DNA of 20,007 bases from a virus. A program made the translations under genes and the position numbers. The stretch covers positions 1 through 20,007 of the IMG/VR virus record IMGVR_UViG_3300025410_000105, one strand, 5' to 3'. Under the pieces are notes generated by a model. It did no database searches, was not told where the DNA came from, and saw only the letters and a program-made list of their open reading frames with translations. This document shows positions 2,911-16,601 of this stretch, one piece after another. Position 1 is the first letter of the stretch; every line of letters starts with the position of its first letter.

Positions 2911-3007
2911 TTTGTCACCTTTCTTTAGTAGTTCTTTTCCTTGCCCGATTATTTGCCTACTGTGTAGGGCTCACGGGATTTATTCTTATTTAATTGTTAT
3001 GACTGGA

Positions 3008-3365: not shown

Positions 3366-3578
3366 AAATCAAGTCGCAAAACGGACAAAATAGGACAAAT
3401 TAAAAAATATTTTTATCTTTGACTGGTCATTTCTGCCCGTTATGCACCAAATGTCCGAATTTCGGGCGCACTATCCAAAATTAAAAAAAAGTTTTGAAAG
3501 ATGCATCATCCATTTTAAAATCCCATTCACATTTTTGTCAAAAGTGATTCTTAAAATTAGCTGAGAGGCGGGATTTTG
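3366..3578. other. Intergenic cassette C
   Basis: This non-coding region is related in parts to cassette B. It has ACGGACAAAA (3381-3390), ATTTTTATCTTTGAC (3409-3423, inverted copy at 1597-1611), the near-palindrome TGACTGGTCA (3420-3429), and AAATGTCCGA (3449-3458, inverse of TCGGACATTT). An 11-bp palindrome CCGAATTTCGG follows. AAAATCCC (3517-3524) and GGGATTTT (3570-3577) form a wide inverted repeat just past the stop of the gene ending at 3579 and may help end the lysis operon. No gene is seen. Confidence 0.55.
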
Positions 3579-4370: not shown

Positions 4371-4581
4371 TTTCTTCATCCTCAAATATAAAAGACGGGG
4401 CGGGAGCGAGAATCTGTCCAGATTCATGCAAAGATGATAATCCCTTAGCATCAGCACCTAGCTTATCTGCAATAATAGATAACATATCATAGTTACGCAT
4501 CTCCTGGATGTATATCGCACCTAGAAGTTCTCGTATATTTGATATCATATCTTCCATTAGCTCTTCTCCTAAATTACCCAT
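4351..4581 (-). CDS. Small helical hypothetical protein (76 aa)
   Basis: The ATG at 4581-4579 has AGGAG about 8 nt upstream and overlaps the preceding gene by 8 nt. The first ~45 residues are amphipathic helix (LGEELMEDMISNIRELLGA and onward). A Pro/Ala linker (ILAPAPSF) and a very acidic end (EDEENDVQSE) follow. No family is recognised. The end of this gene encodes the ribosome site for the next. Confidence 0.7.
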   Translation of the reverse strand: MGNLGEELMEDMISNIRELLGAIYIQEMRNYDMLSIIADKLGADAKGLSSLHESGQILAPAPSFIFEDEENDVQSE

Positions 4582-4840
4582 TATCTTCTCCTATGATCTC
4601 TCTAGTTAGATAATCCCATTTGTTGGCTTCCATACTAGTAGAGCAGTTTATCTGTAAATCCCCGTTTTTACTAGTCTCAGTATATAGCCATTTTATGGGT
4701 TTGTCTAGTTCTACCTTACCGATCAATATATGATCTGGATTTCCATTTTCATCTGATTGTTTCACGTGAAACAATATGGCTAGGGGTTCATCCTTTTCTG
4801 ACGGCTCAATATAAGCTCTTTCAATGTGAATCTTGGCCAT
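4574..4840 (-). CDS. Hypothetical protein (88 aa) that contains a parS site
   Basis: The start at 4840 overlaps the upstream gene by 20 nt. I see no clear ribosome site, so translational coupling is likely. The sequence alternates beta-like stretches (IHIERAYIEP, LAILFHVKQS, HILIGKVELD, KWLYTETSK) and resembles a small beta-barrel, with no recognised family. Codons 23-28 (L-F-H-V-K-Q) are written by the exact 18-bp palindrome described separately at 4757-4774. Confidence 0.7.
   Translation of the reverse strand: MAKIHIERAYIEPSEKDEPLAILFHVKQSDENGNPDHILIGKVELDKPIKWLYTETSKNGDLQINCSTSMEANKWDYLTREIIGEDNG
4757..4774. promoter_or_regulatory. parS: Perfect parS-type palindrome (ParB-CTP loading site)
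   Basis: TTGTTTCAC followed by GTGAAACAA is a perfect 18-bp inverted repeat. Its inner 16 bp, TGTTTCACGTGAAACA, match the well-known bacterial chromosomal parS consensus, including the 14-bp form GTTTCACGTGAAAC used in Streptomyces and other actinobacteria. It lies inside the 88-residue gene, in frame with six codons. No parA or parB gene is in the window, so the reader would be a host or distant phage ParB. The match is visible directly; function is inference. Confidence 0.75.
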
Positions 4841-5324
4841 GTGAAGATTGAGATAATAATGGATAGTCTTCTGCCATCATGTTATTAAACTCTTCTGATC
4901 CTATCCAGAATATATTTCCTAATACCCGCCATGCAAAATTTGTACCTTCAGATAAATGTTTCTCTATTGCCCAAGATAAAACTTCTGAATCCAGTTTCCG
5001 TCCCGCCTCAATCAGCATCGTATACTCAACATCCTTAATTTTGCGGGTTGAGAAGATTGTCTGAGATATTGAAGGTTTGAAAGATTCAGGCATTGTTTCA
5101 TCAGTTAAGTAATCACATCTAAATGTCTGACATGGGGATACTGGTCTTGCCTCATATACCCCGCATCCTTCTCCGATTTTTACAAATGGGCAAGGTACCC
5201 TGACGCCTTCATCATTGATTCCCATGAAGTATTTCTCTGTACCCAATTCAGCCCGTAGATGGCCTTCACAGCACTTTGTACATCCTTCACAGGATCTTCC
5301 ATTGACAACAGGAAGAAAGTCCAT
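4821..5324 (-). CDS. YkgJ-family Cys-cluster protein (putative Zn/Fe-chelating)
   Basis: The N-terminal third has the signature of the YkgJ/UPF0153 family: C12-x2-C15-x2-C18-C19, then P-C45-P, C54, S-P-C65 and R-x-C70. This fits a metal-binding domain of about 70 residues. The family is usually described as zinc- or iron-chelating, with biochemical function unsettled. Residues 80-167 are mostly helical with no motif I know. The start at 5324 overlaps the stop of the preceding gene (TAATG) and has only a weak ribosome site. Placement between a peptidoglycan hydrolase and unknown late genes is unusual. Roles such as metal scavenging or Fe-dependent modification are possible. Confidence 0.8.
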   Translation of the reverse strand: MDFLPVVNGRSCEGCTKCCEGHLRAELGTEKYFMGINDEGVRVPCPFVKIGEGCGVYEARPVSPCQTFRCDYLTDETMPESFKPSISQTIFSTRKIKDVEYTMLIEAGRKLDSEVLSWAIEKHLSEGTNFAWRVLGNIFWIGSEEFNNMMAEDYPLLSQSSHGQDSH

Positions 5325-5785
5325 TAAACGAGTCTTTTCGCCAGATCTGCGGGTGTAACAAGAGCATGTGGCTTATTGGTCAACTTAATCTTAATATGAG
5401 AATATGACCATGCCACCAATTGTGAGCATATAACTCTTTTTTCTTTTTCAGCTAATATATTTGCAGGAAGTATAGATAATCCAAGACACTTAAATGCCAG
5501 TGCAATAATTGATCCTACGCCATACCCGTCATTTTCAAAACTTTTTGCAAATTTTACAAGATTTGAGCGTTGTTCTTCTGTGAGCGGCTCATTGCTCCAG
5601 ATAATTGGGAGATTATCATATTCACTAATATCACGAATCTTTACTCCATTCGGACGAGCCTCAATTACTTTGTTGTCTCCGATATATATTCCAGCATGAT
5701 TCCATTTTGAGCGGGTTCCTAATTGAATTAATCTAGCAGCCCAGCCAGTTGTATGAACTACAAAGTAATCTCCAAGATTAGGCAT
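5324..5785 (-). CDS. Permuted NlpC/P60-like (YiiX/G6R-type) cysteine hydrolase
   Basis: The order of catalytic elements is that of circularly permuted papain-like enzymes. An N-terminal GD (residues 5-6) comes first, then W-N-H30-A-G-I-Y with the catalytic His. E42-A-R-P-N-G-V follows, and the Cys nucleophile is in I-C120-S-Q-L-V-A. The family cleaves amide or ester bonds, often in peptidoglycan stem peptides or lipids. At 153 residues it is a stand-alone domain without a signal peptide. Its start (GGGAG 7 nt upstream) overlaps the preceding gene by 8 nt. With the transglycosylase two genes upstream it probably forms a lysis or virion-entry pair. Residues ~89-111 contain a hydrophobic stretch. 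Confidence 0.8.
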   Translation of the reverse strand: MPNLGDYFVVHTTGWAARLIQLGTRSKWNHAGIYIGDNKVIEARPNGVKIRDISEYDNLPIIWSNEPLTEEQRSNLVKFAKSFENDGYGVGSIIALAFKCLGLSILPANILAEKEKRVICSQLVAWSYSHIKIKLTNKPHALVTPADLAKRLV

Positions 5786-6008
5786 TTTCTATCTCCCTTA
5801 AAATATTTTCATATAATTGGATACCAGCAATTTGCTCATACCCACACGCTGTACAGTATAGCACGATTTTATTGTCTTGTTCTTTATGAGTTAGCCAGTA
5901 TAAGACATCGCTAAAGCTATAGTCATTCTTATGATTAGGACAGGCGAGAGGTTTTACCCTACCCGCCTGTGCTAAGTTGTAATACTGAGAGAATACTTGA
6001 ATTTTCAT
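5778..6008 (-). CDS. Small zinc-ribbon-like protein (76 aa)
   Basis: The ATG at 6008-6006 overlaps the stop of the transglycosylase gene as TGATG; a longer open frame from 6089 would overlap that gene by about 80 nt and is rejected. The product has C23-P-N-H26 and C52-T-A-C55, giving a four-ligand zinc site with a 25-residue spacer (DVLYWLTHKEQDNK). The last 20 residues are an acidic helix. Function is unknown. The spacing recalls the zinc ribbons encoded at 655-979. Confidence 0.75.
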   Translation of the reverse strand: MKIQVFSQYYNLAQAGRVKPLACPNHKNDYSFSDVLYWLTHKEQDNKIVLYCTACGYEQIAGIQLYENILREIENA

Positions 6009-6691
6009 CAGTATGCTATGTTCGCCTTCTGAAATACAGATGTGACATATTGGTAGACAGTAGGATTTCCTGGAAGCGGTGCTTGCCAAGATTTCATATT
6101 GCCTGCTCTTGATGGGTAGAGATGTGCTGCAACGGCTTTTCTCCAGTCCTGATACTTGGCGTAGGATGATTTTAGTTCATTTACCATACGTTCGTCCTGT
6201 ACCCATTCTGGTGCATCGCATGCACTCTTATAGCCCATAAAGTTATCCCATGATGTTGACATGTACTGATACGCACCACATGCACTACTGGAATAAGACT
6301 TGCGATAATATGCACCAACTCCGCCAGTTTCCTGACTCTTGATTGCATTTGCTAGTCTTGAGATTATTACCCGATTATCTACTCTTGAATTTAAATTTAG
6401 CTTGATGCTATAGTCGGGCATAATAAAATTATTTCCAGAGTTAAAATCAGTAACTAAATAAGCTGATCTTAATCTGTTATTAATATTATTATTAATATAA
6501 TCAATATTAATTATATTTTTAATATTAACTAAATTAATATATTTATTAATATATAATATATTTTTATTATACACTACAAGTTCTTTCATTTGTGCTGCAT
6601 GGACAGGATTAACGCCAAAAAGCATTGTGATAATGCTCACACCAATCATTGTCCATACTGTTCTTATCCTTGCTTTGTTCTCATTGTTCAT
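6008..6691 (-). CDS. Secreted lytic transglycosylase-like endolysin (227 aa)
   Basis: Residues 1-34 form a signal peptide: a basic start (NKARIR), hydrophobic MIGVSIITMLFGV, and a cleavage-like VHA-A. The C-terminal domain (residues ~108-227) has the soluble-transglycosylase/lysozyme-like pattern: catalytic Glu in Q-E121-T-G-G, then S-S-A-C-G-A-Y-Q (135-142), and W-R-K-A-V-A-A-H (183-190). Cys138 and Cys158 may pair outside the membrane. Such enzymes cut the MurNAc-GlcNAc bond. Residues ~41-78 are a low-complexity Ile/Asn/Tyr linker encoded by almost pure AT. The start at 6691 has a strong GGAGG site 6 nt upstream. It leads the leftward operon from the promoter at 6725-6753. Confidence 0.85.
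   Translation of the reverse strand: MNNENKARIRTVWTMIGVSIITMLFGVNPVHAAQMKELVVYNKNILYINKYINLVNIKNIINIDYINNNINNRLRSAYLVTDFNSGNNFIMPDYSIKLNLNSRVDNRVIISRLANAIKSQETGGVGAYYRKSYSSSACGAYQYMSTSWDNFMGYKSACDAPEWVQDERMVNELKSSYAKYQDWRKAVAAHLYPSRAGNMKSWQAPLPGNPTVYQYVTSVFQKANIAY
6475..6572. repeat. Almost pure A+T low-complexity tract inside the endolysin gene
   Basis: Roughly 95 bp with only two or three G or C bases, made of reiterated ATTAAT and TTAATAT words. It encodes the Asn/Ile-rich linker of the endolysin. It could be a slippage-prone expansion or an easily melted DNA element, and it lies 160 bp from the divergent promoter pair. Confidence 0.7.
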
Positions 6692-6724: not shown

Positions 6725-6753
6725 ATCGTACCATGATACAATTAGAAAAACAA
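6725..6753 (-). promoter_or_regulatory. Leftward promoter of the lysis operon
   Basis: On the minus strand TTGTTT (6753-6748), a 17-nt spacer ending in TGG, and TACGAT (6730-6725) form a good extended -10 promoter. The predicted start near 6718 gives a leader of about 26 nt carrying the GGAGG site of the endolysin gene. Confidence 0.6.
6734..6742 (+). promoter_or_regulatory. Rightward extended -10 promoter
   Basis: TGA-TACAAT is identical to the extended -10 of P2 but lacks the TGTCAGTGG box and a clear -35. The predicted start near 6749 would give a short leader of about 17 nt with AGGA before the ATG at 6766. It abuts the leftward -10: ATCGTA-CCA-TGA-TACAAT. Confidence 0.6.
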
Positions 6754-6765
6754 GTCAGGAATTTA

Positions 6766-7764
6766 ATGAAAGTATCATTTACGGGTGCTCCCGAATACAT
6801 GGATCGCAATGTTGGCTATGGTGAAGCCTCATTTCACGTGTTTAAAGAATTTGAGAAACAAGGCATTGAATGTTTAATTGGTTCTCCATCTGCAAAAATT
6901 GGTATGTCATTTATTCAACCAAATCAATACAAGTTTGGTAAATATCAATATAAAATTGGTTATACTCCATGGGAGTCAACGGGAATTCCAGATGAATGGA
7001 AAAAACCATTACTTACTGGAATTGATGAAATGTGGACAACATCACAATGGTGTGCAGATGTATTTAAACAATACACTAATAAACCTGTCTTTGTTTATGA
7101 ACATGGAATTGAAGATGAATGGATTCCTATAAAGAGAACAATCAATCCAGACCGCCCGTTTAGATTTTTACATATTGGCGAACCTTATTTTAGAAAAGAT
7201 GCACAACGAGTTGTTGAAGCATTTATTAAAACATTCGGTGATGACCCTAGATTTGAGTTAGTTTTAAAATGTAGTCGCATGAATACAACAAGAGTATTTG
7301 ATCCTGTTACTGGACAAGTTCAGGGATCACCTGGAGCATTTTATCCAAACATTAAAACCATTGAATCTCTTTTGTCTACCGAGCAAATGAATGGCCTTTA
7401 CGATTTGTGTGATGCATTTGTTTATCCGTCATGGGGTGAGGGATTTGGATTTAATCCTTTGCAAGCAATGGCTAAAGGTATTCCAGCTATTTGTACAAGT
7501 GTATGGGCACCATATGCAAGATATATAACTGCTCCGCTTGATTCTGAAAAAGTTTCTTCACCTTGGCCTACCGTCCATCCTGGAGAAATGTACAGACCTA
7601 ATTTTGAACAACTAATGTTTTATATGAAAGATGTTTATGAGAACTATGATAAGTATAGTGACCTAGCTTACAAAAATGCTTTCTTAATTCACAAAGATTA
7701 TAACTGGTCAAAAGTATCAAAGCCAGCTGTTCAAAGGTTAAAAGAAATACACGAAAATCTTTAA
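6766..7764 (+). CDS. GT4-like glycosyltransferase (332 aa)
   Basis: The C-terminal half has the GT-B, family 4 hallmark Y-P-S-W-G-E-G-F-G-F-N-P-L-Q-A-M followed by AKGIPAI, which binds the nucleotide-sugar. In the usual E-x7-E pair the second Glu is Gln here. The first half has a Gly-rich loop (NVGYGEASFH). R-F-L-H-I-G-E-P-Y-F-R-K-D begins the second Rossmann domain. I start at 6766 because AGGA lies 5 nt upstream and the earlier ATG at 6733 sits inside the -10 box. The substrate is unknown; with the downstream FkbM and GH130-like genes it suggests synthesis or decoration of a glycan on virion or host surface. Confidence 0.85.
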   Translation: MKVSFTGAPEYMDRNVGYGEASFHVFKEFEKQGIECLIGSPSAKIGMSFIQPNQYKFGKYQYKIGYTPWESTGIPDEWKKPLLTGIDEMWTTSQWCADVFKQYTNKPVFVYEHGIEDEWIPIKRTINPDRPFRFLHIGEPYFRKDAQRVVEAFIKTFGDDPRFELVLKCSRMNTTRVFDPVTGQVQGSPGAFYPNIKTIESLLSTEQMNGLYDLCDAFVYPSWGEGFGFNPLQAMAKGIPAICTSVWAPYARYITAPLDSEKVSSPWPTVHPGEMYRPNFEQLMFYMKDVYENYDKYSDLAYKNAFLIHKDYNWSKVSKPAVQRLKEIHENL

Positions 7765-7778
7765 AATCTTGATTTTAA
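7761..7778. repeat. Perfect 8-bp inverted repeat after the glycosyltransferase gene
   Basis: TTAAAATC, TT, GATTTTAA forms an 18-bp palindrome that includes the stop region of the glycosyltransferase and the -35 (TTGATT) of the next promoter. It could be an operator or a weak terminator. It is AT-rich, so confidence is modest. Confidence 0.4.
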
Positions 7779-7798
7779 AAATTGCAGTGTGATACACT
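7769..7798 (+). promoter_or_regulatory. Promoter of the ribonucleotide reductase gene
   Basis: TTGATT (7769-7774), 18 nt, TGA-TACACT with the -10 at 7793-7798. The predicted leader of about 25 nt ends in GAGGAG 5 nt before the ATG at 7829. Confidence 0.55.
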
Positions 7799-7828
7799 TA
7801 AGTTCTATTAAATTCCAGAGGAGACCAC

Positions 7829-9760
7829 ATGTCTAATACAATTGAAAACCCATATGAAAATTTTATCGCACTATCTCGCTATGCAAGATGGTTAGAAAAT
7901 GAAAATCGCCGTGAGACATGGGGTGAAACTGTAGACCGTTACTTTAACTTTATGGTTATTCAATTGCGTGAGAAGCATGGTTACGTTCCTAGCGATGAAA
8001 TTCTTGCAGAACTTCGTGAAGCAGTATTTAACCGTAACGTCATGCCATCAATGCGTTCTGTTATGACTGCAGGACCTGCATTAGAAAGAGAAAACGTTGC
8101 TGGATACAACTGTTCATTTATTCCAGTAGACAATGCAAGATCATTTGATGAAGCAATGTATATTCTTATGTGCGGTACTGGTGTTGGATATTCTGTTGAG
8201 TATAAATACATCAATAAACTTCCCGCCCTTCCCGAAACACTAGAGAAATCTAATAGTATAGTTATTGTTGGAGATTCAAAAGAAGGTTGGGCAAAAGCTT
8301 ATCGTGAACTTCTTTCTCTTTTATGGGCAGGACAAATTCCTCAAATTGATATTAGTAAAGTTCGTCCAGCAGGTGCAAGACTTAAGACTATGGGTGGGAG
8401 GTCGTCTGGCCCACAACCACTTGTAGATCTTTTTGATTTTACAATTCAAGTATTTAAAGGAGCACTTGGTCGTCAATTAAAACCAATTGAAGCTCATGAC
8501 ATTATGTGTAAAATTGGTGAGGTTGTTGTAGTTGGAGGAGTTCGTCGTTCTGCTATGATTTCTCTTTCAAACATTAACGATATTGAAATGGCAAAAGCTA
8601 AATCAGGAAATTGGTGGGAGCAACATGGTCATCGTGGATTAGCAAATAATTCAGTAGCATATTCACGTAAACCAGATATGGAACAATTTATTGCAGAATG
8701 GAAATCTCTATATGATTCAAAGTCGGGCGAAAGAGGTATCTACAATGTGGCAGCAGCACAAGCCCAAGCAGCAAAATATGGAAGAAGAAATCCAGATATT
8801 CACTACGGAACTAACCCATGTTCAGAAATTATTTTACGTCCTTACCAGTTTTGTAATCTTTCAGAAGTCGTACTTCGTGAAAAAGATACAGTTGAAGATG
8901 TTGCTAACAAAGTTCGTCTTGCATCTATATTGGGTACGTGGCAATCTACGCTTACAGATTTTAAGTACATCCGTAAAATTTGGAAAGACAATACGGAAGA
9001 AGAACGCCTTCTAGGAGTTTCTCTTACAGGACAGTTTGGCCATAAATTCTTTTCTGGTCAAGAAGGTTTAACAAAACTTGCAGATGTTCTTGATAGACTT
9101 CGTGAATATGCAGTTACAACAAATATTGAAGAAGCAGGGAAAATTGGGATTCCCGCTTCAGCAGCAGTAACTTGCGTTAAGCCTTCAGGCACAGTGTCCC
9201 AATTGGTCGGGGTGTCTTCAGGAATGCATCCATGGCATTCTGATTACTATATTAGAACAGTTCGTGGAGATAAAAAAGATCCACTTACTCAGTTCTTAAA
9301 AGATTCTGGAATTCCAACAGAAGATGATGTTAGAAAGCCTAATGATACTTGTGTATTTTCATTTCCAGTGAAAGCACCAAAAAATGCTATAACAAGAGAT
9401 AAGCTTACAGCAATAGAACAACTTGAAATTTGGCTTGTTTATCAAAAGCATTGGTGTGAACATAAGCCATCTATTACTGTTTCAGTAAGAGAAGATGAGT
9501 GGATGGAAGTTGGAGCATGGGTATATAAGAATTTTGATGAAGTATCTGGAATTTCATTCCTTCCATATTCAGAGCATACATATGTTCAGGCACCATATCA
9601 AGAGATTACAAAAGAAGCATATGAAGAGTTGTCTGCAAAGATGCCAAAGAATATTAACTGGTCTGCATTATCTCTTTATGAGCTTGAAGACACAACAACA
9701 GGAACTCAAGCTCTTGCATGTGTATCTGGTGAGTGTGAAATAGTAGATATTAACAAGTAA
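7829..9760 (+). CDS. nrdJ: Adenosylcobalamin-dependent class II ribonucleoside-triphosphate reductase
   Basis: The enzyme reduces ribonucleotides to deoxyribonucleotides for phage DNA synthesis, using a B12-generated thiyl radical and no oxygen. Key residues match the Lactobacillus leichmannii-type monomeric enzyme. C95 (in Y-N-C-S-F) and C342 (F-C-N-L-S-E) form the substrate-side pair. N329-P-C331-S-E333 carries the radical Cys with its Asn and Glu. K-P-S-G-T (451-455) is the phosphate-binding loop. The C-terminal C631-V-S-G-E-C636 is the reductant relay. At 643 residues it is about 100 shorter than the leichmannii enzyme (739), part of the loss lying between C95 and C331. The start has a GAGGAG site. 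No thioredoxin-like partner is in the window. Confidence 0.93.
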   Translation: MSNTIENPYENFIALSRYARWLENENRRETWGETVDRYFNFMVIQLREKHGYVPSDEILAELREAVFNRNVMPSMRSVMTAGPALERENVAGYNCSFIPVDNARSFDEAMYILMCGTGVGYSVEYKYINKLPALPETLEKSNSIVIVGDSKEGWAKAYRELLSLLWAGQIPQIDISKVRPAGARLKTMGGRSSGPQPLVDLFDFTIQVFKGALGRQLKPIEAHDIMCKIGEVVVVGGVRRSAMISLSNINDIEMAKAKSGNWWEQHGHRGLANNSVAYSRKPDMEQFIAEWKSLYDSKSGERGIYNVAAAQAQAAKYGRRNPDIHYGTNPCSEIILRPYQFCNLSEVVLREKDTVEDVANKVRLASILGTWQSTLTDFKYIRKIWKDNTEEERLLGVSLTGQFGHKFFSGQEGLTKLADVLDRLREYAVTTNIEEAGKIGIPASAAVTCVKPSGTVSQLVGVSSGMHPWHSDYYIRTVRGDKKDPLTQFLKDSGIPTEDDVRKPNDTCVFSFPVKAPKNAITRDKLTAIEQLEIWLVYQKHWCEHKPSITVSVREDEWMEVGAWVYKNFDEVSGISFLPYSEHTYVQAPYQEITKEAYEELSAKMPKNINWSALSLYELEDTTTGTQALACVSGECEIVDINK

Positions 9761-10770
9761 TGAACCTAGTACAAAGAGCCGTTAATGCTGGTGGTAAACT
9801 AGCACCAATTGTGATCCCGCAAGATATAACATCGGGAACTGGCTTGATGAATCCATCTGTTTTTATAGATGATGACGGGGACATACTTGTAAACCTTAGA
9901 CACACTAATTATACACTTATTCATTCTGAAAATACTCAGAAGTTTCCTTCACGCTGGGGTCCATTATCATATGCTCATCCAGAACAAGATAGAAAGCTTG
10001 GTACAACCAATTATCTTGTAAGAATGGATAAAGATCTTAAGGTTACAGACTATTGTTTTATAGACACCTCTAAAAATGATATTCCGCCAGTATGGGAATT
10101 TGTGGGATTAGAAGATGCTCGTCTTGTAAAATGGGATGACAAGTATTATATGATTGGTGTCAGAAGAGATGTAAAGCCTAATGGCGAAGGCCGTATGGAA
10201 TTAGTAGAGATTAAGATTAATAAAAAGAAATGGTCTGCTAAAGAAAAATCACGTATTAGAATTCCCGCCCCAGGCGAAGACAATTCTTATTGTGAAAAGA
10301 ATTGGTATCCTATTTTAGACAAGCCTTATCATTTTATTAAATGGACTTCTCCAACAGAGATTGTCAGAACATACCCAGATCTTCCAGCACGTTGCGATCA
10401 GGTTGAAGTAAAGCTTGCACCACCAGTTCAATCAGATTTGCGTGGTGGATCACAACTAATTCGTTGGGGCAAATTTTATTTGTCAATAGCACATGAAACT
10501 GAACTATTCTTTAATTATCTAAATCAAAAAGATGGAATATACCGTCACCGTTTGTGTGTCTGGGATGATGATTTTAATCTGGTTGGTATATCTCCAGAAA
10601 AGTTTTCCTTTTTAGATGCAAGAATTGAATTTTGTGCAGGTGCAGCAAAGCTAGATAATACACTGCTTATATCTTTTGGTTTTCAAGATAATGCTGCATT
10701 TATTTTGCGGGTTACCGAAGATGTTGTTGATCAGATGATACAGGAGGCATTAACATATGAACTCAATTGA
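9760..10770 (+). CDS. GH130-like five-bladed beta-propeller protein (336 aa)
   Basis: The ATG overlaps the reductase stop (TAATG). The protein resembles the GH130 mannoside phosphorylase/hydrolase fold. It has M-N-P-S-V-F near residue 30 with V-N-L-R-H-T-N-Y, then F-V-G-L-E-D-A-R-L-V (114-123) followed by a Y-Y-M-I strand. E-K-N-W-Y-P (179-184), R-G-G-S-Q (228-232) and a final F-G-F-Q-D-N-A-A blade come after. Classical GH130 has E-D-P-R where this has E-D-A-R. Activity may be glycan phosphorolysis, hydrolysis or only binding; the substrate is unknown. Next to GT4, TPR and FkbM genes it fits a surface-glycan module. Confidence 0.75.
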   Translation: MNLVQRAVNAGGKLAPIVIPQDITSGTGLMNPSVFIDDDGDILVNLRHTNYTLIHSENTQKFPSRWGPLSYAHPEQDRKLGTTNYLVRMDKDLKVTDYCFIDTSKNDIPPVWEFVGLEDARLVKWDDKYYMIGVRRDVKPNGEGRMELVEIKINKKKWSAKEKSRIRIPAPGEDNSYCEKNWYPILDKPYHFIKWTSPTEIVRTYPDLPARCDQVEVKLAPPVQSDLRGGSQLIRWGKFYLSIAHETELFFNYLNQKDGIYRHRLCVWDDDFNLVGISPEKFSFLDARIEFCAGAAKLDNTLLISFGFQDNAAFILRVTEDVVDQMIQEALTYELN

Positions 10771-11329
10771 AGAGTTAATTGAATATACGTCTCATGATAT
10801 GTTTAACCCAGTGCTTAATTTTGAGATTGCTAAGAAATACGAAGAACTTGGTCAAACTGCTGCTGCAATATCATTTTATTTAAGAGCAGCAGAATATGGC
10901 TATGAAACTTACCCATTAATTGTTTATACATCGCTTATTAGAATGTCTTTTTGTTTTGAAAATCAACAGGGTAGAGAACATTCTGTAAGTAACTATTTGT
11001 TGCAAGCAATAGAGTATATGCCAACAAGACCAGAGGCATACTTCTTGCTTTCCCGTTTTTATGAAAGAACTCAAAAGTGGCAAGAGTGTTATACTTGGGC
11101 ACAAGTTGGTTCTATATATGGAGAAAGAGTAGAAAGTTTGCCAGCGGAAACAGAATATCCTGGTGCATATGGATTTTTATTTGAAAAAGCTGTAAGCGGT
11201 TGGTGGCTGGGTAGAAAAGAAGAATCTGGCAAAATATTTAAAGATCTTTTAACAAAAGATATAGCAGAAAATTATAGAGCTACAATAGAATGGAATATGA
11301 AGATGGTGGGATCAAATGTTACTATTTGA
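10757..11329 (+). CDS. TPR-like helical repeat protein (190 aa)
   Basis: The start overlaps the previous gene by 14 nt and has AGGAGG about 9 nt upstream. The helical pairs resemble tetratricopeptide repeats: N-F-E-I-A-K-K-Y-E-E-L-G-Q-T-A-A-A-I with F-Y-L-R-A-A-E-Y-G (residues ~22-50), and R-P-E-A-Y-F-L-L-S-R-F-Y-E-R (~91-104). The last pair is G-W-W-L-G-R-K-E-E-S-G-K (~148-159). Such repeats usually scaffold protein partners. TPR segments often accompany glycosyltransferases, so a complex with the GT4 or GH130-like protein is a reasonable inference. No catalytic residues are seen. Confidence 0.72.
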   Translation: MNSIEELIEYTSHDMFNPVLNFEIAKKYEELGQTAAAISFYLRAAEYGYETYPLIVYTSLIRMSFCFENQQGREHSVSNYLLQAIEYMPTRPEAYFLLSRFYERTQKWQECYTWAQVGSIYGERVESLPAETEYPGAYGFLFEKAVSGWWLGRKEESGKIFKDLLTKDIAENYRATIEWNMKMVGSNVTI

Positions 11330-11987
11330 TATAGGTGCAAATAGAGGAGATGCAGTTGTTGCGGGGCTTGAATTAGGTTTTGATAAGATTATAGCATTAG
11401 AACCTGCACCAAAAATGTTTATGTTATTGCATAATAATTTTAAAAATAATCCAGAAGTTGTCCCGCTTAAATATGCTGTGTCTGATTCTAATAATGAAAG
11501 AATTGAATTTTATGAATGTGTTGAAGATGGTTTATCAACAATTAATATTGAATGGTTAACTGCAGATAATGCATTATACAAAGGAAAACAATATAAAACA
11601 ATATATGCAACAACATGCACTATTGATAAGCTTGTTGAAAAATATGGTTTGCCAGATTTAGTTAAAATTGATGTTGAAGGTGCAGAAACACAAGTATTTA
11701 ACGGAATGACATGCAAGCCCAAAAAGCTTTGTTTTGAATGGAGCCTATTTACGCTAGATCAACATATAGAGCAATTAAAAAGATTGCGTGATGTTAATGG
11801 ATATACTGAATTTGCTTTACAATATATCACCAAACACCTAGAAGAGCCTTTGACTTACCGCTCTCTTGATGATTATGAATTATTACCCACTTGGATTGAA
11901 AATACCAAAGCAGAATGGGAAGGCGGGGAGTGGCTAAAATATGGTCACAGAGCCACAGCAGACGTTGGTATGATATGGGTCAAATAA
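11316..11987 (+). CDS. FkbM-family SAM-dependent methyltransferase (223 aa)
   Basis: The Rossmann SAM-binding motif F-D-I-G-A-N-R-G-D is at residues 4-12 and an acidic strand end A-L-E-P-A-P at 28-33. V-K-I-D-V-E-G-A-E (around residue 116) is the hallmark of the FkbM family, whose members mostly methylate hydroxyls on sugars or natural products. The gene overlaps the TPR-like gene by 14 nt, with GGTGGGAT upstream as ribosome site. Being the last gene before the tail fibres, it may O-methylate a phage or host glycan made by the upstream GT4; this is inference. N-terminal residues before the SAM motif are nearly absent, giving a minimal domain. Confidence 0.88.
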   Translation: MLLFDIGANRGDAVVAGLELGFDKIIALEPAPKMFMLLHNNFKNNPEVVPLKYAVSDSNNERIEFYECVEDGLSTINIEWLTADNALYKGKQYKTIYATTCTIDKLVEKYGLPDLVKIDVEGAETQVFNGMTCKPKKLCFEWSLFTLDQHIEQLKRLRDVNGYTEFALQYITKHLEEPLTYRSLDDYELLPTWIENTKAEWEGGEWLKYGHRATADVGMIWVK

Positions 11988-12023: not shown

Positions 12024-15000
12024 ATGAGCCTGCAATACACCTATACCAGTAATCTCCAAACTACTCAGGGCGGTAATTTCAACTATCCCGCTTATACAGA
12101 CACACCTGACGTTCCAAGAGATATTTATCGTTTAGCCACAGAGCTTGACGCATATTTGGCTGTTAACAAAGGTCCAGGTTATTTAATATTTTCAAGTTCT
12201 TCAAATACATTTTCTTTAGGCTCAAAAACTTTTTCTGTTTCAATTAATGCAAACAACCCAAATGGTAGCGGTGCATATGCAGCAGGTGACCGTGTAAGAA
12301 TAATAAATACTGCTAACTCAGCTCAGTTTATTGAAGGTATTGTTACATCTGTAACAACGAATTCAAGTATTACCGTAAATATTGATACTGTCCTAGGCTC
12401 AGGAACTATCACAACATGGCAATTTAGCCTTACTGGTATACAAGGAATTCAAGGGCCACAAGGTCCCCAAGGAACCCAGGGTGTACAAGGAGTACAAGGT
12501 CCTCAAGGCACCCAGGGTATCCAAGGCGTACAAGGACCACAAGGCACACAAGGTGTGCAGGGAGTTCAAGGTCCTCAAGGCACACAAGGTGTGCAGGGAG
12601 TTCAAGGTCCTCAAGGCACACAAGGTGTGCAGGGAGTTCAAGGAACTCAAGGTGTACAAGGTTCTGGTTATTCGGTAACAACATCTACAACATCTGTTAC
12701 AGTTGGAACAGGTGCACAAACATTTACAATTACATCTCCAGGTGCATTTATTGCAGGAGATCGTGTAAGAGTTGTTGATACAGCAAACACTTCCATATTT
12801 ATGGAAGGAACAATTTCTTCAATATCCGCAACTAGCTTAACAATGAACGTTGATATGGTTTCAGGTTCTGGAACTATTGCAACTTGGAAGTTTAGCATTG
12901 CTGGTGTTCAGGGTGTTCAAGGTCCACAGGGTCTTCAAGGTGTACAAGGCCCGCAAGGAACCCAAGGCATACAAGGCATACAAGGTGTCCAAGGTCCACA
13001 AGGAACACAAGGAGTTCAAGGTCCTCAAGGAACACAAGGTATCCAAGGTGTACAAGGACCACAAGGTACACAAGGTGTGCAGGGCGTTCAAGGACCGCAG
13101 GGAACGCAGGGAATTCAAGGTCGTTCTCACATTGGTGTTACATCAGTAACATCTAATACAATTGGTCAAGGTCCAAAAACATTTGCAGTAACTTATTCTG
13201 GAGATTTTGCACTAGGCGAAAATGTAATTGTTTCTAATACTGCTGCACCATCAAATTATGTAATTGGTAATATCACCGCACTGACATTAGATTCAAGTAT
13301 TACTGTTAACGTTACAACTACAGGTGGATCTGGAACTTATACTGCTTGGACATTTGCATCATCTGGAATTCAAGGTGTACAAGGTACTCAAGGAGTACAA
13401 GGTCCTCAAGGCACCCAAGGTATCCAAGGTGTACAAGGACCACAAGGTACACAAGGTGTGCAGGGTCTTCAGGGTATTCAAGGGCCTCAAGGTACCCAGG
13501 GTACCCAGGGTGTACAAGGTCCGCAAGGAACCCAAGGCATACAGGGCATACAGGGAGTACAAGGACCACAAGGTACACAAGGTGTCCAAGGTACACAAGG
13601 TATTCAGGGTATTCAAGGCCCGCAAGGCACACAAGGTGTGCAGGGTGTTCAGGGACCACAAGGCACACAAGGTGTGCAAGGAAATCAAGGAACTCAAGGA
13701 ATACAAGGTGTCCAGGGTATTCAAGGAATTTCTATTCAAGGAACCGCAGGTATAGCAGGTCAAACAAATGCACACGCAGCAATTAATGCCGTTTCTACAA
13801 ATAGTGGAGCGGGATCAAGTACTTATTTTGCGGGAAGTGCAGATGTTGAAAGCGGAAATGGTATTGGTGCTTATATTGAAGCAAATACAAATGGAGTTAT
13901 ACCAACAATTGATGGAGTAACACTCGCTATTGGAAATCGTGTTTTATTTACAGGTAGAGCAAACTCAATTGAAAATGGTATTTATTCAGTAACTAATTTA
14001 GGGTCAGGTTCTACCAAATATCGTTTTACTCGTGCAACAGATTCAGATAACCATGTTGCTGCACAAGTAGAACCAGGAGATTATGTTTTTGCACTTACTG
14101 GAACTTTATATGCAAATAGTACATGGGTTTTGTATAGCACTGGTTCTAATCCAGATGGTTCAATTAAAATTGGTACAGATCCAATTCAATTTACACAAGC
14201 AGGCGGAATTGGTGCACAGGGAACTGTAGGTCCACAAGGTACACAGGGTGTACAAGGCAATCAAGGTTTGCAAGGTATTCAAGGTTTTGGATATGCACAG
14301 CTTCAGGGTACACAAGGTATACAAGGTTTGCAGGGCAATCAAGGCACACAAGGTGTTCAGGGGACTCAAGGAATTCAAGGAATACAGGGTTCACAAGGTA
14401 CTCAAGGTTTACAAGGTTTGCAAGGCGTTCAAGGTCCACAAGGTACGCAAGGATTACAGGGACTTCAAGGTACACAAGGTTTGCAGGGCCTGCAGGGACT
14501 TCAAGGAAACCAAGGTCTTCAAGGTTTTGGTTATGCACAATTACAAGGTGTTCAAGGAACGCAGGGACTTCAAGGAACTAATGGTAACTATACAATTTCT
14601 GCAACTCCTCCATCATCACCAGTAGTTGGATCAGCTTGGCTTAATTCAAATGATGGTCGTTTATATATTTGGGATGGCGTTGAATGGTTTGAACCTTACG
14701 ATAATTTAAGCGGACTTCAGGGTATTCAAGGACCTATAGGTACTTCAATTGCAACTACGGTTGCAGTTTATATGCCAGGTGGAACTTCTAGCCCACAAAC
14801 TGCTGCAATTAACGCACCTGCTGGTACTTATATTTATCAGTCAAGTGGTCAAAGCGTGACTGCAACTCTCAACGGTACTACTCTTACCCCACCTGATGCG
14901 GCTGCAACTTCATTTGTTGCTGGTACTGTAACTCTCGCTGGTGGTGCAACCTCTATAACAATAGACACTCTTAAAGCCCTATCATCCAATGGAACGAAAT

Positions 15001-15950
15001 TTAGCACTACTGCTGGCAGTCCTTTTAATTCAATTGGTTATTCGTCCTCTGCTGGAAAATATCTTGCCAATCCAGCAGGTTCTAACAGCAGTTATTATTA
15101 TCTATCAAGTGATTTAATAAATTGGACACAATATAGCAAGCCATCTGGTTTAACTAACCCCGTTTATGTTCAAGGCGGTAGTAACGGATTTGCTTGGTGG
15201 GGTGATTTTAATTACGGAACCTCAACAGACGGCATTAACTGGACAATACGCTCATATTCATCATCGGCGCTTGTTTACAGATCAGGTAAGCCATCCAGCA
15301 ATGACAACGGATATTATGTTTATATTGGACCTCAATCGGGTGACATTTATTATTCATCTAATAACACGACTTATACTAAAGTAACTATTTTGTCACCTGG
15401 GCAGGTTTTTGGTATTTACTATCTAAACGGTCAATGGGTTGCTCTTTGTTTTGATTTTTCTGATTACAACTTTTATTTTTACACTTCGTCCAATTTGACC
15501 ACTTGGACTAAAGTTATCGGCAGCAACCCTAGAGTTCATGCAGGCAACTCTCTTTTAACTTACATAAGTGGAACTTATTATTTGTTTTCTAGTGGTGATG
15601 GCGTAGTTTATTCAAGTACGACTTTAACAGGACCTTGGACAACTATTAGTTCTGCTCTCCCTGGCGATATAGGTCAAATTATTCAAGTTGGTAATAATTT
15701 TGCAGGACTTGGGGCTTCTTCATATTACACATCAACTGATTATGGAGTTACTTGGACTACTTATAGCGCTCCCGCAAATGCTTACAGTTCCAATTCAGAC
15801 AATTTGGATCTTCAGTATTTCAATTCAAATATTGTTGAAATGTATTCTGACCCAACCACTACTTACGCTAGTATTGCAAAAACTACTACACTTGCCCCAC
15901 CTAATACTCCAGCAAAACTAATTCTCACAAAGGCAGCAGTAACCTCTTAA
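12024..15950 (+). CDS. Collagen-like tail fibre protein (1308 aa)
   Basis: A modular fibre. Residues 1-60 are a probable attachment domain. Four collagen-like G-x-Q blocks lie at about 139-213, 294-366, 449-569 and 730-852. The first three are each preceded by a beta module of about 80 residues with the same pattern (GDRVRI-TAN, later GSGTI-TW-F). A common phage-fibre domain (V-x-L-A-x-G-N-R-V-L, N-G-I-Y-S-V, T-R-A-T-D) fills 600-728, and a small W-rich domain lies at ~853-895. The C-terminal ~310 residues carry Asp-box/BNR-like repeats ([15 protein letters not shown]), suggesting a receptor-binding propeller. The Y position of the collagen triplets is nearly always Gln. FGYAQLQ interrupts the fourth block twice. 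It forms trimers by family analogy. Confidence 0.88.
12450..14580 (+). repeat. Collagen-coding DNA repeats
   Basis: Four tracts (about 12438-12662, 12903-13121, 13368-13730 and 14211-14579) are built from 9-nt units encoding G-x-Q, combined into 27-nt and longer near-identical blocks (e.g. three consecutive copies at about 12549-12632). Such tracts are prone to recombination or copy-number change and explain the many overlapping shadow frames here. Confidence 0.8.
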
Positions 15951-15959
15951 GGAGATAAA

Positions 15960-16601
15960 ATGGCTATTAACTTTCCTACAACAAGTTTAACACCAAACGT
16001 AACTACGTACACTTACTCTGGACGCACATGGTTGTGGACAGGTACTGTTTGGCAATCTGTTGGTACCGCTCAAGGTTTGCAAGGAACCCAAGGAATACAA
16101 GGAATACAAGGATCGCAGGGAACTCAAGGAGTTCAAGGAATACAGGGTATTCAAGGATCTTCCTATACTGGACCAACACTTGGCCAAACATATTTATCTT
16201 CTGCACAAACAATTTCAGGTGTTCAAGGTTTAACTTTACAAAATACTACATTACAAGGTACACTTATTGCAGGCGGAGTTGTTGGAACTTCTGGATATCT
16301 TTTGACATCTACTGGAACAGGTGTTCAATGGGCACCAGCCCCAGTTTCACTTCCTTCACAAACTGGTTATGCATTACAGTTCCTTACAACTAATGGAACT
16401 ACTGCATCGTGGACACCAGTTTATTATCAATCTGTTGCAACTGCAGCAACTACAGGCGTTGCGGGAACTCCAAGTACAGCCCGCCCTAAATTAACATTTA
16501 TTGGTGCAACATTATCAGATGATTCCGCCAATAACCAAACAACTGTTACAATTACAAGTGGCGGAAATGCAGAGATAAACACAATTATGGGAGTCTATTA
16601 A
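15960..16601 (+). CDS. Small collagen-like tail fibre (213 aa)
   Basis: The start at 15960 has AAGGAG 6 nt upstream and lies 9 nt after the long fibre. Residues 1-38 form a phage-fibre start module with paired Trp (SGRTWLWTGTVWQ). A short G-x-Q collagen block occupies 39-66. The rest is Thr/Gly/Ser-rich beta structure with a repeated Q-G-x-T-L pattern (residues ~88-105). The C-terminal ~60 residues (PKLTFIGATLSDD, TVTITSGG) resemble fibre-tip folds. It may form a side fibre or pair with the 1308-residue fibre. Confidence 0.78.
   Translation: MAINFPTTSLTPNVTTYTYSGRTWLWTGTVWQSVGTAQGLQGTQGIQGIQGSQGTQGVQGIQGIQGSSYTGPTLGQTYLSSAQTISGVQGLTLQNTTLQGTLIAGGVVGTSGYLLTSTGTGVQWAPAPVSLPSQTGYALQFLTTNGTTASWTPVYYQSVATAATTGVAGTPSTARPKLTFIGATLSDDSANNQTTVTITSGGNAEINTIMGVY

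Follow-up and report, generated by a model that had tools for sequence, protein, structure and literature searches.

In bacteria, parS is the DNA site at which the chromosome-segregation protein ParB is loaded. Its consensus in B. subtilis and C. glutamicum is the palindrome TGTTNCACGTGAAACA (PMC7022226). The closest phage precedent for the locus described here is phi29 (Salasvirus), a virulent Bacillus phage that has no partition genes of its own and carries chromosomal-type parS; according to PMC9437464, which cites Meijer et al. 2005, its genome is reported to be entrapped in spores by the host Spo0J (ParB). Used as a positive control, phi29 gave four one-mismatch sites, TGTTTCACGTGGAACA, located within annotated genes or at their ends, against a mean of 0.003 matches at ≤2 mismatches for permuted palindromes. 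Two other systems are comparable in part. The parS mimics of SGI1 bind the resident IncC ParB, so that SGI1 gains stability and the owner of the ParB is destabilised (PMC10954446), whereas prophages of RedRock (cluster A) actinobacteriophages encode both ParA and ParB and have a phage-specific parS made of direct repeats (PMC7157519). The phage studied here would share with SGI1 the condition of a mobile element with parS copies, and with cluster A that of actinobacterial phages exploiting ParB-parS partition. However, SGI1 mimics a plasmid parS and the present phage a chromosomal one, and in contrast to cluster A with its own parABS, neither partition gene was found in the relatives searched and the palindrome is of the chromosomal kind.

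The window, that is, the whole stretch of DNA analysed, is a viral IMG/VR contig of 20,007 bp. It contains the palindrome TTGTTTCAC-GTGAAACAA (Table 1), within which TGTTTCACGTGAAACA satisfies exactly the 16-bp definition of a chromosomal-type parS. This bears out the initial annotation, which had reported a perfect 16-bp parS inside an 18-bp palindrome; the palindrome even extends to 20 bp, with arms of 10. The accompanying estimate that a given 16-mer is expected by chance about once in 10^5 windows of this size agrees in order of magnitude with the calculated value, 20,007/4^16 = 5 × 10^-6. On the minus strand the site is written, as had been noted, by six in-frame codons of a gene of unknown function, TTG TTT CAC GTG AAA CAA, encoding L23-F24-H25-V26-K27-Q28. 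A Noc site (NBS) was rejected as the identity of the palindrome, since its half-sites differ; an intrinsic terminator was rejected as well, the sole terminator-like match between positions 3000 and 7000 sitting elsewhere. The sequence of the site is the one given for parS of C. glutamicum and M. smegmatis, and the chromosomal sites of these species and of B. subtilis are identical to it or fall within the consensus (PMC7022226). In contrast to those sites, it stands on a phage, as a single copy (no second match at ≤3 mismatches in the whole window) and unlinked to parAB or oriC. The description of the carrier as a lysis-operon gene is plausible in view of the neighbouring amidase and a weak endolysin match, but it remains unproven, as the 88-aa protein itself has no match in PHROGs or Pfam.

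Table 1. Features of the window, with positions counted from its first nucleotide
Feature	Position	Strand	Remarks
Orphan parS TTGTTTCACGTGAAACAA	4757..4774	.	Exact 16-bp consensus at 4758-4773; palindrome 4756-4775
88-aa gene, unknown function	4574..4840	-	parS at codons 23-28; 80 IMG/VR homologs kept
Promoter P_b (TTGACA-18-TAAAAT)	3512..3541	-	Second address; neither parS nor CRP-type palindrome there in the window
Cys-rich protein	4821-5324		SCEGCTKCCEGHLR near start; adjoins the parS gene; PHROGs family of unknown function
C92/NlpC-P60-type amidase	5324-5785		Neighbouring ORF
ORF with endolysin match	6008-6691		Weak match
Metabolic cluster	6733-11987		Glycosyltransferase, B12-dependent ribonucleotide reductase, FkbM methyltransferase
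Putative tail proteins	12024-15950 and 15960-16601		Long collagen-like Q-G-x-Q-G repeats

Relatives of the window carry the site as well. The exact 14-bp core, GTTTCACGTGAAAC, occurs in 12 of 50 further relatives, where 0.005 would be expected in 1.3 Mb; the reversed control gave no exact match in those 50 and a single one-mismatch match in all of them. With near-identical contigs counted once, about ten lineages hold the exact core, and they hold it at three addresses: (a) inside the 88-aa gene, (b) at a distance of 1-2 kb downstream of it, where the site directly precedes the conserved intergenic promoter P_b (L219, L220, G116/L225 and G119, with one-mismatch versions in G025 and L192), and (c) in a gap between genes about 13 kb downstream, shortly after the -10 box of another promoter, P_c (G028, G123/G124 and G095). 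The coding position is thus not essential, since other lineages have parS between genes. No long genome examined has more than one copy. Several relatives, 87-108 kb in length, have no site even at ≤1 mismatch; some lineages or hosts can thus do without it, which counts against the recruitment of host ParB proposed below. A ParB_N domain was detected in none of 52 relatives, in a search that can miss divergent ParB and among records many of which are fragments, and a ParA of the AAA_31 type in none of the 26 long ones. Consequently, the parAB genes to which a chromosomal parS is linked on its own replicon were not detected, nor were the parA and parB genes that mark a phage-encoded parABS system, and what the relatives do satisfy is the phi29-type definition of an orphan parS, namely a site beyond chance without a phage ParB. 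As regards a virulent life style, no tyrosine integrase was detected in the same 26 long relatives, although serine integrases and repressors lay outside the search and the records may be incomplete.

WhiB genes are present in 9 of 15 long relatives, and the terminase (TerL) of G004 is 62-68% identical to those of Streptomyces phages of the Stanwilliamsviridae; on these two grounds we infer actinobacterial hosts. The window derives from a freshwater phage that, on this inference, probably infects actinobacteria. A host search through bacterial genomes returned 46 pattern matches, none of which was confirmed. The site is missing from the ten sampled Streptomyces phages of the Stanwilliamsviridae, whose terminases are the nearest, and this too counts against recruitment.

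Because the relatives keep the site at three positions without a ParB gene having been found, recruitment of the host ParB, which the initial annotation had raised as a possibility, is very probable, and the orphan parS, which is real and recurrent, is very probably read by that protein, although there are no binding data. Both sequence checks suggested in the annotation, for the site and ParB genes in related phages and for the palindrome in the codons of homologs, gave results in its favour. We propose, as the probable explanation, that the phage uses its orphan parS to load host ParB-CTP clamps onto its own genome; the host ParB would bind the site and then spread, both steps being inferred. 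The benefit would accrue to the phage genome as a whole, through attachment to the ParA/SMC segregation and nucleoid machinery of the host, which would assist the positioning, compaction or retention of phage DNA in cells that divide slowly. This genome-level benefit is inferred from the fact that the copy number is kept while the address is not. We favour such attachment over control of a single promoter nearby and over the titration of ParB in bulk, but with less certainty, as it has not been shown; which purpose the site serves among segregation, compaction, regulation and titration remains undecided.

Local control is the alternative that survives best. Here the host ParB, or another protein reading the palindrome, would regulate nearby phage promoters or silence the region by spreading. 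The site touches a promoter at two of its three addresses, lying just downstream of one in group c and just upstream of the -35 box of P_b in group b, at the spot where other lineages have TGTGA-N6-TCACA, so local regulation is not excluded. Against an operator, the same single site stands at three addresses beside different genes, genomes that keep the promoter are often without the site (G116 at P_c, G123 at P_b), and in the clade of the window it lies within a gene, about 1.2 kb from P_b. We therefore regard an operator function as possible but doubtful. As a separate observation, the spot upstream of P_b is exchangeable: parS occupies it in five of the listed sequences, the CRP-type palindrome in nine, which include several parS-less lineages, and other sequence in the rest. 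This box may be a control point at which phages swap host regulators.

Less probable still, and in our judgement unlikely, is that the site serves as a decoy, with tens to hundreds of one-site phage genomes pulling ParB off the host origin and disturbing segregation or division. Phage copy number alone would suffice for this, and SGI1, with its two parS mimics, destabilises the IncC helper partly in this manner (PMC10954446). Arrays of 3-5 sites do exist on some unrelated viral contigs, but the family of the window has one site per genome and no array, whereas a pure decoy would gain from more. The contigs with arrays are L046, L073, L082 and L092, in which 3-5 exact parS are clustered within about 1 kb and ParB_N was not detected.

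Beyond this family, the exact 16-bp parS was found in at least 120 IMG/VR stretches, compared with 1, 11 and 9 for three composition-matched palindromes, two of which retain the CACGTG core; the enrichment over these CACGTG-containing controls is at least 10-fold. The sites also lie between ORFs far more often than random positions do (44 of 104 versus 9.8%; Fisher p = 2 × 10^-17). A chance origin was rejected on the basis of the composition-matched palindromes and the random positions. Among the parS contigs listed, 76 of 80 have no ParB_N match, which suggests that the trait may be widespread. In 5 of 10 sampled contigs, the largest protein could clearly be assigned to a phage structure; most of the contigs, but not necessarily all, would thus be true phage DNA, and misassigned host DNA remains a caveat.

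The carrier gene offers a view of the site at the level of single codons. IMG/VR yielded 86 relatives of the 88-aa gene, the best 80 of which were kept. The exact site is retained in three near-identical contigs (97-99%) and, at the same codon positions, in L189/L190 and L197/L198. In a sister group (62-66% identity), a single base differs, giving TGATTCACGTGAAACA and replacing F24 by I; this one-mismatch site counts against recruitment of the host ParB, with its quality as a site unknown. According to the initial annotation, homologs that keep L-F-H-V-K-Q with synonymous changes breaking the palindrome would refute the proposal. L173 nearly qualifies, as it keeps the peptide with one synonymous change (TTC), but the resulting TGTTCCACGTGAAACA still fits the published consensus (PMC7022226) and, read on the opposite strand, equals the four phi29 sites. 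H-I-K homologs use the codons CAT and ATA/ATT/ATC, and their gene has no site. Six H-V-K sequences (the window, L005, L021, L173, L189 and L197) were available for a codon test. Although the window shares identical codons with the others at only 47-55% of identical residues, TTG of L23, CAC of H25, GTG of V26 and AAA of K27 are invariant in all six, so that invariant codons occupy 4 of 4 motif columns versus 10 of 35 conserved columns overall (hypergeometric p = 0.004); in the window, GTG accounts for 8% of Val codons and CAC for 25% of His codons. The palindrome is thus kept beyond the need of the protein wherever the H-V-K codons are kept, as selection on the DNA predicts. Since the six sequences are related and include the close pairs L005/L021 and L189/L197, we consider the test to be supporting evidence and not independent proof. 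A tree of the 88-aa protein, built on 65 usable columns, does not have the resolution for a firm count of gains and losses. That the window site is a functionless coincidence, in which the peptide H-V-K-Q gave TGATTCACGTGAAACA and a change from ATT to TTT then produced a perfect parS, is very improbable, for even though that one base is what separates the site of the sister group and many H-I-K homologs lack the site, other lineages of the family have exact sites in unrelated places, the rare codons CAC and GTG persist despite synonymous turnover, and parS is enriched in IMG/VR over the control palindromes.

Exact sites are also found in cultured phages. The Gordonia Orchidvirus isolates RobinSparkles, Orchid and Gibbles have a pair of exact 16-mers close to the right end of the genome; in RobinSparkles no ParB_N was found, and a tyrosine integrase is annotated. 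One of the two parS of RobinSparkles (MH479923.1, L296 34661-34691) lies within a longer perfect palindrome, the outer arms of which recur about 380 bp away around a different hairpin. As these cultured Gordonia terrae phages hold exact sites, laboratory testing is possible now. The literature searched contained no description of an orphan chromosomal parS in actinophages. By comparison with the described systems, the family of the window is closest to the phi29 kind of orphan parS, in a different phage group: phi29 carries its four sites into a host that sporulates, whereas this family has one site per genome, apparently actinobacterial hosts and three addresses among which the site moves.

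Taken together, we lean slightly towards the view that orphan chromosomal parS are common in many phage lineages, plugging their genomes into the host ParB/SMC machinery without partition genes, as a general counterpart of the strategy of phi29 in sporulating cells. If the host ParB is recruited, phages that lack integrase and partition genes could make use of the segregation and nucleoid machinery of their hosts, which, if true, would bear on the way in which slow-growing cells come to position, compact or retain the genomes of virulent phages.
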